Of a stretch of 45,323 nt of DNA, positions 22,351-27,403 are shown piece by piece. Source of the stretch: Opitutia bacterium (GTDB taxonomy: Bacteria > Verrucomicrobiota > Verrucomicrobiia > Opitutales > UBA953); the NCBI GenBank assembly GCA_947470855.1, contig CANIUQ010000013.1:1-45323 (forward strand). Direction: 5' to 3'. The notes under the pieces are model-generated. The model saw only the letters and a program-made list of their open reading frames with translations, was not told the DNA's origin and made no database searches. Position numbers and translations under genes: made by a program. Each line of letters starts with the position of its first letter. Within the stretch, counting starts at the first letter, position 1.

Positions 22351-24210
22351 TTAAATTTGCCAATCTTCGGCTGCTGCGGAGGCCGGTTTTGGTAGAACAG
22401 GATGGGGGGCAGTTACAATGTGCAAGACGGCTTGAGCGTTCCCTGTTAATTCTCGAGCTCTTTTCACCGCCTGCGCAAGAGCAGAGGTAGGGTTGGTGGT
22501 GTCCCAGGGTATGACATTCTCTGGTCCAATCGTTTTAACCAAACCTGCTTTATCAAAGATACGCATCGTTTCTGGTTTGGCCTCGCAAAGAATAAGATGA
22601 CGACTGGAGGATTTTAAAGTATTGGCTAAATCTTGAAGCAATAAAACTCCATTGGCATCCAGATGATGTGCCTCGCGGAATTTAAGAATAAGCACTTTTA
22701 AATGGGGGTCGGCTGAGGCGCGGCGAAGGTGTTCATGAAAAGCCTGTGTGGCGCCAAAGTGTAGACTGCCTTCAACATGGAGAATTGAAATACCCGTCGT
22801 TTTTTGTCCCTTGGGTCGATGTTTAATTTCTCCCGTTTCTGAAAAATCGTATTCGACCACTTCTGGCTCAGAAGTCTTTTTGAGGTAAAAGGCGATGGCA
22901 ATCGCTGTCCCGAAAAAGATAGCCACATCGAGAGGTGCAATCAGGGCTGTCAGAAGAGTGGTCAAGAAAACAGCACGATCTTGCAGGCCTGATTTGAGAA
23001 TGAGTTTAATCGTGGGGAAATTGGCTAATTCGATTTCAACTAAAATAACGATAATTGCCAAAGAAGCTAAAGGAACCACGGCTACCCAATTGCTAGCCAA
23101 ATAGGCACCTGCCAAAATGAACACACCGCAAAAGAGAGAGGCGAGTGCGGTGCGGGCACCGCTGGAAATGTTGAGGGCAGAGCGACTGATTGAACCAGAG
23201 GCCGCCATTCCGCCGGTAAATGCACAAACGAGATTAGCCATGCCGAGCCCAAAAACTTCTTGATGAAGGTCGGAAGGGTGACCTGTTTTAAGAGCTGAGG
23301 CTCGTGCGTTAGCGGTTCCCTCGATAATAATAAGAACTGCCAAAGCTAAGGCAGGAGAAAAAAGTACAGAAAGAGTCCGTAAAGAGAAGTCGGGCTGATA
23401 CAACGTGGTGGCTGAGCGAGCTGCATCACCAACATATTGAACCAGAGCATGCGTGCTTCCTTGGTTGTTTGCGACATTTTGCGCCAACATGGCACCAAAG
23501 GTTGTAAGAGCGACTGATCCAAGGATGGCTTTCCCTGTGCCGTAATTTTTTCGTAAAAGATAGTAGGCGATTCCCGTGATGATAGCGAAACCCAATTCAG
23601 GGTTAATCAACTGTCGCCCCATTTTAATGAAATACCAAAAAACTTCGGGTAAGCTTTCTCCTGCGTGTTCACCTGTCATACCTGCCACATAGGGAAGTTG
23701 AAGGGCTATAACTTTTAAGGCAGCAGCAGCAATGTAGGCTGAGATAACGGTGCGCGGAACGAAATCGACAAATCCACTTAGGCGAAGCCATGAAGCAATC
23801 AGGAGGAAGACTCCCGTCATGAGTATGAGGGTCGGCAAAGCGGCAACGCGTTGATCGGGTGTGAGCACGCCCAAGGTCGCGAATGTACCTAAAAGCATGG
23901 CCGCCGAAGCATTGGTTGGGCCTGCAGAAAGATTGATGGAGCCCGTGAAGATGGCTGAAACGAGAGCGGCGACTCCGCAACCAACCAGTCCACACCAGAC
24001 GGGTAAGCCAGCCTTCATCGCAAAAGCCATCGACATAGGGAAGGCGAGAAGGGCAACATTTAACCCAGCGATTAAATCTGCCTTGAGAGAGTCTTGATTT
24101 GTTTGTGTAAATGCTCGACTAATCGGGAAAAACCGTGGTCGAGGAATTTGGCCGATTTGTTGGGTAACTTGGCGAAGGCGAGAAAAGAAAGTAGCAGGGC
24201 TAGAACTCAC
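22351..24210 (-). CDS. SulP-family anion permease with STAS domain
   Basis: 619 residues; the start is a GTG at 24210. About 10-12 membrane segments span residues ~35-450 with the SulP pattern (LIAGLNVALLAFPMSMAFAMKAGLP; GMAASGSISRSALNISSGARTALAS). A cytoplasmic STAS domain covers about 475-590 (ILHVEGSLHFGATQAF; VLILKFREAHHLDANGVLLLQDL). The family carries sulfate, bicarbonate or other anions, and the substrate cannot be read from sequence. It begins 48 bases after the DUF2017-like gene, so it may be co-transcribed with the kinase-clpS group. No carbonic anhydrase lies next to it. Confidence 0.9.
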   Translation of the reverse strand: MSSSPATFFSRLRQVTQQIGQIPRPRFFPISRAFTQTNQDSLKADLIAGLNVALLAFPMSMAFAMKAGLPVWCGLVGCGVAALVSAIFTGSINLSAGPTNASAAMLLGTFATLGVLTPDQRVAALPTLILMTGVFLLIASWLRLSGFVDFVPRTVISAYIAAAALKVIALQLPYVAGMTGEHAGESLPEVFWYFIKMGRQLINPELGFAIITGIAYYLLRKNYGTGKAILGSVALTTFGAMLAQNVANNQGSTHALVQYVGDAARSATTLYQPDFSLRTLSVLFSPALALAVLIIIEGTANARASALKTGHPSDLHQEVFGLGMANLVCAFTGGMAASGSISRSALNISSGARTALASLFCGVFILAGAYLASNWVAVVPLASLAIIVILVEIELANFPTIKLILKSGLQDRAVFLTTLLTALIAPLDVAIFFGTAIAIAFYLKKTSEPEVVEYDFSETGEIKHRPKGQKTTGISILHVEGSLHFGATQAFHEHLRRASADPHLKVLILKFREAHHLDANGVLLLQDLANTLKSSSRHLILCEAKPETMRIFDKAGLVKTIGPENVIPWDTTNPTSALAQAVKRARELTGNAQAVLHIVTAPHPVLPKPASAAAEDWQI

Positions 24211-24258
24211 CTCATTTGTTTTGCTGAAGCCGTGGAATCACTCAAATGCTTTTTTAGA

Positions 24259-24723
24259 TTAATCGAAAGCTTCGGAATCAATCTGACTAATCAAGGATTG
24301 CTGTAAGAGCCCAAAGCAGGAGTAGCAGGCCAGAGCGTGACGTTTTTCATTGGGCAGATTGTCATCGTCTAAATCTTCAGCCCTTTCCAATTGATCATCA
24401 GGAATGTCTGAAAAAACCAGTTCACGTAGGGCAAAACGAACCGCTGAAAGGGCACGTAGAAAGGCGAGAGACTGTGCTTCATTTTTAAGGATGATGACCG
24501 CAGGTTCACCTTTGGCATTGGCAAAGGCAGCGGCCAAGAGTCGTGCCTCTTCTCCCGCCTGAGCGGAAAGACTCTCCGTCCAAAAAGAAGCGACTTCTTT
24601 ATCGCCATCCGGAATCTGAGCCCGATTTACCGAAACTCGTGCCGCCGCTGGGGCAATAAGGCGTAAAAGATCAGTCAGCACATTGCGTGCTTCAGCCGTC
24701 ATGGTTAGTCTGAGTTCAGCCAT
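24259..24723 (-). CDS. DUF2017-like protein, clpS partner
   Basis: 154 residues, acidic, mostly helical. It starts inside the end of clpS (8-base overlap), so the two are translationally coupled. In Actinobacteria clpS is usually followed by a DUF2017 gene; the position, size, helical N-terminus (LTDLLRLIAP) and the C-terminal pattern YSCFGLLQQSLISQI resemble that family. This assignment is by eye and by context; no profile was run. A role in substrate delivery to Clp protease is inferred only. Confidence 0.65.
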   Translation of the reverse strand: MAELRLTMTAEARNVLTDLLRLIAPAAARVSVNRAQIPDGDKEVASFWTESLSAQAGEEARLLAAAFANAKGEPAVIILKNEAQSLAFLRALSAVRFALRELVFSDIPDDQLERAEDLDDDNLPNEKRHALACYSCFGLLQQSLISQIDSEAFD

Positions 24724-25003
24724 TTTTTTCTAATCGTGCACTGAGGTGCCATTGTTGAAGTTCGAGAACAATCATTTCTGCTCTTTCGAGTTTGCCTGTC
24801 CACACAATGGCTCGTCCCTCATTGTGAACTATTAGCATATATTTTTTTGCTTGGGTGTGAGAGATACCCAGAACATTGGTTAAAACGATAACTACGTAAT
24901 CTTGATAATTTACCGGATCATTAAGTACGACGACATTCCAATGGGGGCTGACTGAGACAACTTTTTCGGTTCCAATCTCCGGTTTAATTTTAGGTTTGGC
25001 CAT
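24716..25003 (-). CDS. clpS: ATP-dependent Clp protease adaptor ClpS
   Basis: 95 residues, usual size. ClpS binds N-degron substrates and hands them to ClpA or ClpC. The core motifs WNVVVLNDPVNYQDYV and MLIVHNEGRAIVWTG are intact, including the conserved Asn-Asp pair and pocket His. NDPVN and HNEGRA match actinobacterial and cyanobacterial ClpS more than E. coli (NDD..P, HYQGKA). It overlaps the histidine kinase gene upstream by 14 bases and the DUF2017-like gene downstream by 8, so all three are translated as a unit. No clpA or clpC is in the window. Confidence 0.92.
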   Translation of the reverse strand: MAKPKIKPEIGTEKVVSVSPHWNVVVLNDPVNYQDYVVIVLTNVLGISHTQAKKYMLIVHNEGRAIVWTGKLERAEMIVLELQQWHLSARLEKNG

Positions 25004-26822
25004 CGGCAGTCAAATCTCCCAAGGAGCGTAACAATTCCTCGAGCCTTCGCAAGCCATCGATGAGTTGTTTTGTTCTTTTTATCGTTTGGGGGTCGCGGGG
25101 TTTGTGTTCGATTTGACCGGCAAGATTGACCAGTCTTGTGCAGCCCATCATGCCCAGCATGCCTGAAACCGCATGGGCTTGAAATCGAATATCCTTGGGG
25201 TCGTTTTTAGCCAAGGCTGTTTGGAGTTTTTCAATAAAGGAATGGGAGTACTTGAGAAAAACACGCGCAGCACATTTTAAGTCTTCGGCCTCCTGCTCAT
25301 CGGCAAGTCGAAGGTTTTTAGTAAACTCATCGATGTTGTCGGGTAATTCATTGGATTGGCTAACGACCTTGATTTTTTTGACTAGATCAGCGCCACGCAG
25401 TGGTTTTACCAAATAGGTTTCAAGACCGGCCTTTTTACAATTGGCCCGTTGGCCTGGTTCATTCATTCCCGTTAATGCAATCAAGGGGATGGGTTTTCTT
25501 TTTAAGCGTTTCTCTTCTCGACGTATGGCTGTTGCCACCTCGATGCCTCCTATAAGCGGCATTTGTAAATCTAAAATAACGAGATCAAATTCTTTAATTC
25601 GCCAGAGTTCCAAGGCCGCCACCCCGTCGACCGTGGCACTGACCTCGTGACCAGCCCGTTTTAACTGTAAAGAAATTACCTCACGGTTTACTTCGTTGTC
25701 TTCTGCAACCAAGATGCGCAACGCACGTTCCGTTTTTTCTTTAGGTTTTAGGAGAGAAGGCATGACTTCCGTGCTTTGCTTTTTGTCTTCAAGGAGGTTG
25801 CGTAAAGTTTGAAGATTTAAAGGTTTAGGTGCGACTCGATAGCCGTGAAAAGGGTAATCAAAATCAGTCAACAAAATGATCGAAGTTGAACTGGTTTGAG
25901 GTAGTTGTGGAGAAGTGTCTGCGGGGATATCGATAATGAGGTAGTCAAAATTTTCATTACCGTTTATTTTCTCAACCTCCTCGGTGCTATTGGCGGTTAC
26001 CACTTTGGCACCCCAGAATTGAAGGCTTTGACTCAACCACGGTTGGAGATGGGGACAGGAGCATTGCAATAGAATCTTCTTTGCTTTCAGGGTCTTAGGA
26101 GTCGTGGCATGGAGTGAATGAACGAAGGCACAATTCAGATTGACCGTAAAACAAGTGCCTTTGCCGATATCGCTTTCTACGAGAACATCTCCTCCCATCG
26201 CTCTGGCCAGAGATTGAACCATCGCTAAGCCTAGTCCTGAGCCTCCGTAGCATTCAGCCGTGTTTGGTTCCGCTTGAGTGAAAGGTTGAAAGAGGAAGGC
26301 CAAACGTTGTTGCGCAATGCCAATTCCAGTGTCTTTGACTTTCATTTCGACTCGATAGCCTGTGGCCGATTCTCGAAAGTTTAAAGAGGCATGAATTGTC
26401 CCCTTGGCGGTAAACTTTACGGCGTTGTGTAGGAGATTGGTGAGAATTCTTTTAAACTTTATTTTGTCTCCCATGACCTGTTCGGGTGCGTCAGCGGGAG
26501 TAAATCCTAAGAGTTCGATTCCTTTAGCTCGTGCCTTGGGATAAAGGTAGGCGAGTGTCTCATGAAAAGCACTCACTGGATCGAAAGCGATTAGCGAGAG
26601 TTTGCCCTGTCCCTGTTGGAACTGGGCAAATTCAAGGACGTCTTGAACGAGGTTGGATAACTCCTCGGCGCAGTTTTTTATTTTTTGTAAAACCTGGGCT
26701 GACTCGGGTGAGTTCAGCGTAGGCAAGTTTGTTTCGCATAAACCTAAAATTGCCTGCACGGGATTTTGAATTTCGTGAGCCAAGTTGGCCGCAATTAAGA
26801 AATCAGGATTTTCTTTAGACAT
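24990..26822 (-). CDS. Soluble hybrid histidine kinase with receiver and HPt domains
   Basis: 610 residues, no membrane segment and no N-terminal sensor domain; the phospho-accepting His16 (LAHEIQNPVQ) is almost at the start. The HATPase domain covers about 110-230 (KDTGIGIAQQRL, GGSGLGLAMVQSL). A divergent, probably inactive receiver spans about 245-345. A good receiver follows at about 370-490 with Asp418 (LVILDLQMPL) and EDNEVNR. A C-terminal HPt domain contains His550 (FQAHAVSGMLGMMG). This gives a full internal phosphorelay. Without a sensor domain, input must come through a partner or the pseudo-receiver. The gene ends inside clpS. Confidence 0.92.
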   Translation of the reverse strand: MSKENPDFLIAANLAHEIQNPVQAILGLCETNLPTLNSPESAQVLQKIKNCAEELSNLVQDVLEFAQFQQGQGKLSLIAFDPVSAFHETLAYLYPKARAKGIELLGFTPADAPEQVMGDKIKFKRILTNLLHNAVKFTAKGTIHASLNFRESATGYRVEMKVKDTGIGIAQQRLAFLFQPFTQAEPNTAECYGGSGLGLAMVQSLARAMGGDVLVESDIGKGTCFTVNLNCAFVHSLHATTPKTLKAKKILLQCSCPHLQPWLSQSLQFWGAKVVTANSTEEVEKINGNENFDYLIIDIPADTSPQLPQTSSTSIILLTDFDYPFHGYRVAPKPLNLQTLRNLLEDKKQSTEVMPSLLKPKEKTERALRILVAEDNEVNREVISLQLKRAGHEVSATVDGVAALELWRIKEFDLVILDLQMPLIGGIEVATAIRREEKRLKRKPIPLIALTGMNEPGQRANCKKAGLETYLVKPLRGADLVKKIKVVSQSNELPDNIDEFTKNLRLADEQEAEDLKCAARVFLKYSHSFIEKLQTALAKNDPKDIRFQAHAVSGMLGMMGCTRLVNLAGQIEHKPRDPQTIKRTKQLIDGLRRLEELLRSLGDLTADGQT

Positions 26823-27046: not shown

Positions 27047-27403
27047 ATGCATTTCGAGCATCATCGTCAGCCCCTCGCAACGCGCGAAAAGTTTCTCCGT
27101 CGCCTAGGGCGATTCGCTCTTTATGCTTTAGGCTTTTTAACCTTTTCACTCTGCGTTGGAGTCGTCGGCTACCATTGGATTGCGGGGCTTCCTTGGATTG
27201 ATGCCTTGCTCGATGCTTGCATGATTTTGGCGGGCATGGGTCCGGTTTCGGTTTTGACGACGAATGAGGCCAAGCTCTTCGCTTCATTTTATGCCGTCTT
27301 TAGTGGCGTGGCTTTTCTAACCACGTTTTCGATTTTGATCGCTCCTGTCTTACACCGCGTCTTGCACCGCCTACACTTGGGTGATGGTGTGGATCGAGGA
27401 TAA
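27047..27403 (+). CDS. Small K+-channel-like membrane protein
   Basis: 118 residues. Two hydrophobic helices (about 23-45 and 78-103) flank a re-entrant-type segment, GLPWIDALLDACMILAGMGPV, placed as the pore helix plus filter of two-TM K+ channels. The filter position reads GMGP instead of GYG, so potassium selectivity is doubtful. The remainder (KLFASFYAVFSGVAF) is characteristic of a widespread small family often labelled as channel-related. It is monocistronic, with its stop codon seven bases before the convergent tRNA-Leu(CAG). Probable inner-membrane protein; conduction not shown. Confidence 0.7.
   Translation: MHFEHHRQPLATREKFLRRLGRFALYALGFLTFSLCVGVVGYHWIAGLPWIDALLDACMILAGMGPVSVLTTNEAKLFASFYAVFSGVAFLTTFSILIAPVLHRVLHRLHLGDGVDRG

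Follow-up and report, generated by a model that had tools for sequence, protein, structure and literature searches.

A tripartite histidine kinase gene, sensorless in one lineage, precedes clpS and a DUF2017 gene in two families of Opitutales

The window, as the whole stretch of 45,323 nucleotides analyzed here is called, comes from a contig of an Opitutia bacterium of the order Opitutales. Open reading frame calling in the window places three genes on the minus strand in the transcriptional order kinase, clpS and DUF2017, and the overlaps of 14 and 8 bases that the original prediction had reported between them are confirmed by the coordinates of the reading frames (Table 1). The neighbor divergent from the kinase (27047-27403, plus strand) encodes a 118-aa protein with two hydrophobic stretches that, by eye only, is small-membrane- or channel-like.

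Table 1. Coordinates of the genes, domains and overlaps of the locus, numbered from the first position of the window
Feature	Position	Strand	Basis
Hybrid histidine kinase, tripartite, 610 aa, no sensor domain	24990..26822	-	ORF and Pfam
HisKA dimerization/phospho-acceptor domain, aa 11-71, His16	26610..26792	-	PF00512, E 5e-13
HATPase_c catalytic domain, aa 118-229	26136..26471	-	PF02518, E 9e-25
Putative degenerate (pseudo) receiver, aa 246-345	25788..26087	-	AlphaFold2 (AF2), receiver-like order; Asp298 kept
Receiver, aa 370-485, Asp418	25368..25715	-	PF00072, E 5e-25
Hpt, aa 520-592, His550	25047..25265	-	PF01627, E 9e-11; sole Pfam Hpt match of the genome
14-base overlap, clpS start with kinase 3' end	24990..25003	-	ORF coordinates
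clpS, N-degron adaptor, 95 aa	24716..25003	-	PF02617, E 4e-18; pocket residues conserved
8-base overlap, DUF2017 start with clpS stop	24716..24723	-	ATG at this place in 51/51 genus loci
DUF2017 protein, 154 aa, mainly helical	24259..24723	-	PF09438; AF2 pLDDT 91

The kinase is built of HisKA, HATPase, pseudoreceiver, receiver and Hpt regions. It had been described as a sensorless hybrid kinase; the sensor is indeed absent, with HisKA beginning at residue 11, while the tripartite architecture, with its Hpt domain and an extra, degenerate receiver, had been overlooked. The segment at aa 246-345 is read as a putative degenerate receiver, in which the strands and helices of the AF2 model follow a receiver-like alpha/beta order, the aspartate at the phospho-acceptor place is kept and the first acidic residue is replaced by G, A, C or S in the alignment of the window's family (f1); the orthologous kinase of a second family (f20) has two Response_reg matches in Pfam. 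Across 62 aligned orthologues, His16, Asp418 and His550 are kept in all sequences that cover them, the exception being the truncated kinase of G058 (genus g5; loci L392 and L081), which is down to 356 aa with receiver and Hpt gone, sits on a very long branch of the kinase tree and is followed by an intact clpS-DUF2017 overlap. Alignment and tree place the kinases of both families in one orthologous group with invariant catalytic residues. Among NCBIfam profiles, BarA scores best (E 1e-78), with 265 bits against a cutoff of 890 and hence short of the level set for BarA orthologues. The window kinase shares the HisKA-HATPase-receiver-Hpt order and the conserved H, D and H phospho-acceptors with BarA/GacS and ArcB but differs from them in having no membrane or HAMP sensor, in the loss of PAS, in the extra degenerate receiver and in its position before clpS.

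The majority of kinases in the genus are 869-896 aa long and carry a PAS domain ahead of HisKA, within approximately 270 N-terminal residues that are extra relative to the window kinase. The kinases of the window, G018 and G031 are 608-610 aa and have no PAS match in Pfam. Only ∼9 codons of open frame lie upstream of the ATG in the window, and a hidden PAS remnant upstream was rejected, as tblastn with the N-terminus of the relatives gave chance matches only. Since the relatives have PAS domains, the sensorless state is derived, the window lineage having lost PAS late with every phospho-acceptor retained. Further shortened kinases are present in two other groups of the genus (656 and 731-738 aa) and in two g5 genomes (577 and 583 aa); the short forms fall apart in the kinase tree, which suggests several losses, in a tree with flagged long branches where it is uncertain that the 610-aa group joins the 735-aa group. 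The dN/dS of the sensorless window kinase is 0.24 against G018 and 0.11 against G031, which shows continued purifying selection, weaker than that on the aldolase, SulP or DUF2017. Repeated PAS loss combined with retained phosphorelay residues raises the question of how a sensorless kinase is controlled.

The identity of the second gene as clpS, proposed from the outset, is upheld by Pfam at 65.3 bits against a cutoff of 23, while the cutoffs of the NCBIfam subgroups (86-160 bits) are not reached. The pocket residues N34, D35 and H66 are invariant in an alignment with Escherichia coli ClpS, and the equivalent of the gatekeeper Met40 is Gln. Among 51 genus loci, position 40 is Q in 32, T in 15 and M in 4; it is M in 13/13 other Opitutales compared. 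Replacement of Met40 bears on the specificity of ClpS and not on its family membership, and a changed N-degron preference is possible for the Gln and Thr forms. The NDPVN motif, previously taken for an actinobacterial-type signature, is the ordinary form throughout Opitutales. The clpS matches at L088 and L089 (G068 and G074) contain an in-frame TAA that reflects sequencing error or decay.

The third gene had been called DUF2017-like, and the profile search agrees, with a score of 34.9 bits (cutoff 25, E 2.2e-8) for a match that covers only positions 76-177 of the 179 in PF09438; 57 of 72 DUF2017 homologues from Opitutales match the profile at E ≤ 0.001. The structure model is confident and has no match in the PDB at E ≤ 0.001; residues W48, R96 and Q141 are conserved. 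The best structural matches in a further comparison, globin and phycobilisome chains at Z ∼6, fall below the level that is meaningful for helical proteins and give no clue to function. We know of no function and no interaction for DUF2017. In actinobacteria DUF2017 adjoins clpS, with Rv1332 as the mycobacterial neighbor; no paper on Rv1332 was found in the literature searched.

The pairing of DUF2017 with ClpS extends well beyond the genus. In 276 Opitutales genomes, ClpS is present in 136 and DUF2017 in 133; both occur in 132, ClpS alone in 4, DUF2017 alone in 1 and neither in 139 (Fisher p ∼4e-73, kinship uncorrected), and at least two of these five single-gene cases (G266 and G292) rest on fragmentary matches. 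Co-occurrence is independent of adjacency, because the two genes of G071 sit on different contigs; DUF2017 lies after clpS in 75/80 named Opitutales loci. This near-perfect co-occurrence makes DUF2017 a strong candidate for a ClpS partner, and clpS-DUF2017 is a stronger association than kinase-clpS. ClpF-ClpS1, a proposed binary adaptor of chloroplasts in which a second protein partners ClpS at ClpC (PMC11371169), serves as a working analogue for DUF2017, with homology not claimed. The near-constant pairing of ClpS and DUF2017 appears to be undescribed in the literature searched, which contained no paper on DUF2017.

The three genes had also been proposed to be translationally coupled. The overlaps are real; the kinase-clpS overlap is not fixed, overlaps are common and coupling itself is conjectural. 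On the gene list made for this analysis, 8/26 same-strand neighbor pairs in the window overlap, and overlap was rejected as a sign of special coupling. A Shine-Dalgarno-like motif is missing at the first start codon of 31/37 window genes; its absence before clpS and DUF2017 is uninformative, because most window genes lack one, and was likewise rejected as evidence of coupling. The kinase-clpS junction is variable, with overlaps of 8-38 nt in the genus and gaps of 14-110 nt, once 397 nt, in f20. The clpS-DUF2017 junction is stable, since the DUF2017 ATG lies 8 bases inside the clpS end at every genus locus and overlaps of 8 or 14 bases are widespread across the order.

Gene order, unlike overlap, exceeds chance. 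The kinase immediately precedes clpS, with both on one strand, in 49/49 genus genomes with a contig reaching upstream (two further genomes, in which a contig end cuts upstream of clpS, were left out), and a second family shows this order too. Within f1, the same three genes are found in genus g3, with a 927-aa kinase, and in genus g5, with kinases of 356-583 aa; in f20 they are found in 9/10 genomes, where the kinases are 906-917 aa and the genomes, which are larger than in f1, 3.7-5.8 Mb. The flanks differ between f1 and f20, with only the kinase, clpS and DUF2017 common to the loci read, and the three-gene block is therefore treated as the shared unit. Conservation across Verrucomicrobiota, on which the original prediction was to be judged, turns out to be partial, the order being neither unique to this genome nor phylum-wide. 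Kinase-clpS linkage beyond the two families was rejected: none was seen in loci read from other Opitutales families, in the 80 named Opitutales loci, where a single weak match (L237) is separated by 2.8 kb, or in 20 Verrucomicrobiota loci outside the order, and most Opitutales with clpS-DUF2017 have no kinase attached. Nor is adjacency essential within f20, because G146 keeps the orthologous kinase and clpS ∼44 kb apart; its kinase adjoins ketosynthase, ACP and FAD-oxidoreductase genes. In several Opitutales families (L091, L381, L089, L092 and L094), a ketosynthase-ACP-FAD oxidoreductase set recurrently adjoins the kinase, clpS-DUF2017 or both. As judged from these comparisons, kinase-clpS-DUF2017 is a real, conserved gene block, most likely an operon, with a narrow taxonomic range. 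ClpS and the kinase family are already known; their combination appears to be undescribed, and the literature searched yielded no paper on a kinase-ClpS operon.

The genome encodes ClpB, a UVR-motif ClpC, ClpX, a ClpP that adjoins ClpX, and the leucyl/phenylalanyl transferase Aat, which by analogy with known systems would make a complete ClpS-ClpC-ClpP set for N-degron turnover. The genome shares the ClpS pocket residues, ClpC, ClpP and Aat with the established ClpS-ClpC N-degron pathway and differs in that genus ClpS mostly has Q or T at E. coli position 40. Aat is present in 84 of the 276 Opitutales genomes, 77 of which also have ClpS. In the f1 genera g2 and g4, ClpS and DUF2017 are absent, Hpt is absent in tested members and Aat is absent in all but G271.

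The signaling inventory of the genome comprises four HisKA kinases, seven receiver domains and one Hpt, that of the window kinase. The six other receivers are an OmpR-type beside a kinase, two NtrC-like, another OmpR-type and two tandem NarL/LuxR-type. The original prediction had called for a search for the cognate output regulator; no response regulator lies within the kinase-clpS-DUF2017 locus, and the search yielded unlinked candidates. The tandem NarL/LuxR-type regulators (L282:2664-4146; G000:C21:10663-12146) have no kinase beside them, are kept across the genus and have related regulators in g3, g5 and f20. They are the best output candidate for the window kinase, as yet unproven. An exclusive partnership is not supported, as a NarL-type regulator is also present in G060, a g4 genome without ClpS and Hpt.

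The locus may represent an inherited single transcription unit in which a phosphorelay kinase and an N-degron adaptor pair are linked mainly by shared expression, a reading to which we give an even chance. A cytosolic BarA/ArcB-like kinase would relay phosphate from His16 to Asp418 to His550 inside one protein, and the Hpt would pass it to a response regulator encoded elsewhere, with the tandem orphan NarL-type pair as the likeliest recipient. ClpS and DUF2017 would hand N-degron substrates to ClpC-ClpP. The signaling state and the capacity for N-degron turnover would then change together through shared expression rather than through direct phosphorylation of ClpS and, having lost PAS, the kinase would depend on its expression level, partner proteins or the remaining pseudoreceiver and not on a sensor of its own. 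The reading draws on the recurrence of the order in the genus, g3, g5 and f20 with only these three genes common to the loci read, on the orthology, invariant residues and dN/dS of the kinase, on the single Hpt of the genome, on the tandem NarL-type regulators that lack an adjoining kinase, on the presence of the Clp proteins and Aat, and on the joint absences in g2 and g4. Counted against it are the separation in G146, the truncation in G058, the kinase-free clpS-DUF2017 loci of most Opitutales and the NarL-type regulator of G060. The kinase and clpS-DUF2017 may instead be neutral neighbors, the kinase having landed before the pair in the ancestor of both families and been kept by descent, with compact genomes giving rise to the overlap and no functional link. 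The frequency of overlaps in the window and the separate genes of G146 fit such a history, as does at least one distant genus member that also retains the flanking SulP and aldolase genes. In L089 (f15) the ketosynthase-ACP-oxidoreductase genes lie directly before clpS without a kinase, whereas in f20 the kinase lies between, in keeping with one insertion. Neutral order would, however, be expected to decay, and the linkage persists in the large f20 genomes across long gaps and different flanks; this explanation is a tentative one, less probable than shared expression.

The idea of a signal-controlled degradation module goes further, in that the kinase or its phosphorylation state would directly control ClpS/DUF2017 or ClpC as a post-translational switch like that of RssB or CpdR. 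Adjacency conserved in two families and a locus without a regulator gene are in its favor, as are precedents in which a phosphorelay is likewise tied to an adaptor of a Clp protease. The tripartite kinase ArcB phosphorylates RssB, an adaptor of ClpXP (PMC10948607), and the phosphorylation of CpdR, another ClpXP adaptor, is under the control of CckA (PMC11519897). However, RssB and CpdR are themselves receiver proteins that serve ClpXP, whereas ClpS and DUF2017 have no Response_reg match in Pfam and no evident Asp acceptor, ClpS is expected to act on ClpC, and the link here is by gene order only. In most of the order, and presumably in G058, the clpS-DUF2017 pair also does without the kinase. 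Direct phospho-control of ClpS is possible, if unsupported, and direct control of the module as a whole is unlikely; because ClpS and DUF2017 lack an evident acceptor, shared expression is placed first, neutral adjacency second and direct control third. More doubtful still is a scheme in which the kinase gates N-degron proteolysis via a receiver-less ClpS-DUF2017 complex with DUF2017 as an obligate co-adaptor. A closer parallel to shared expression than RssB or CpdR is the GacA-Rsm pathway, which governs the stability of RpoS by way of clpXP expression (PMC12923157). If functional, the kinase linkage would give the N-degron pathway an input from a phosphorelay. To our knowledge, little is understood of how ClpS-dependent N-degron turnover is controlled.

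Over window positions 22351-24640, DNA identity to L031 of G018, the closest relative, falls from ∼95% to 74-84% across DUF2017 and SulP and returns to ∼95%; for G031 the identity remains close to 87%. The DUF2017-SulP stretch of G018 has probably undergone homologous replacement.
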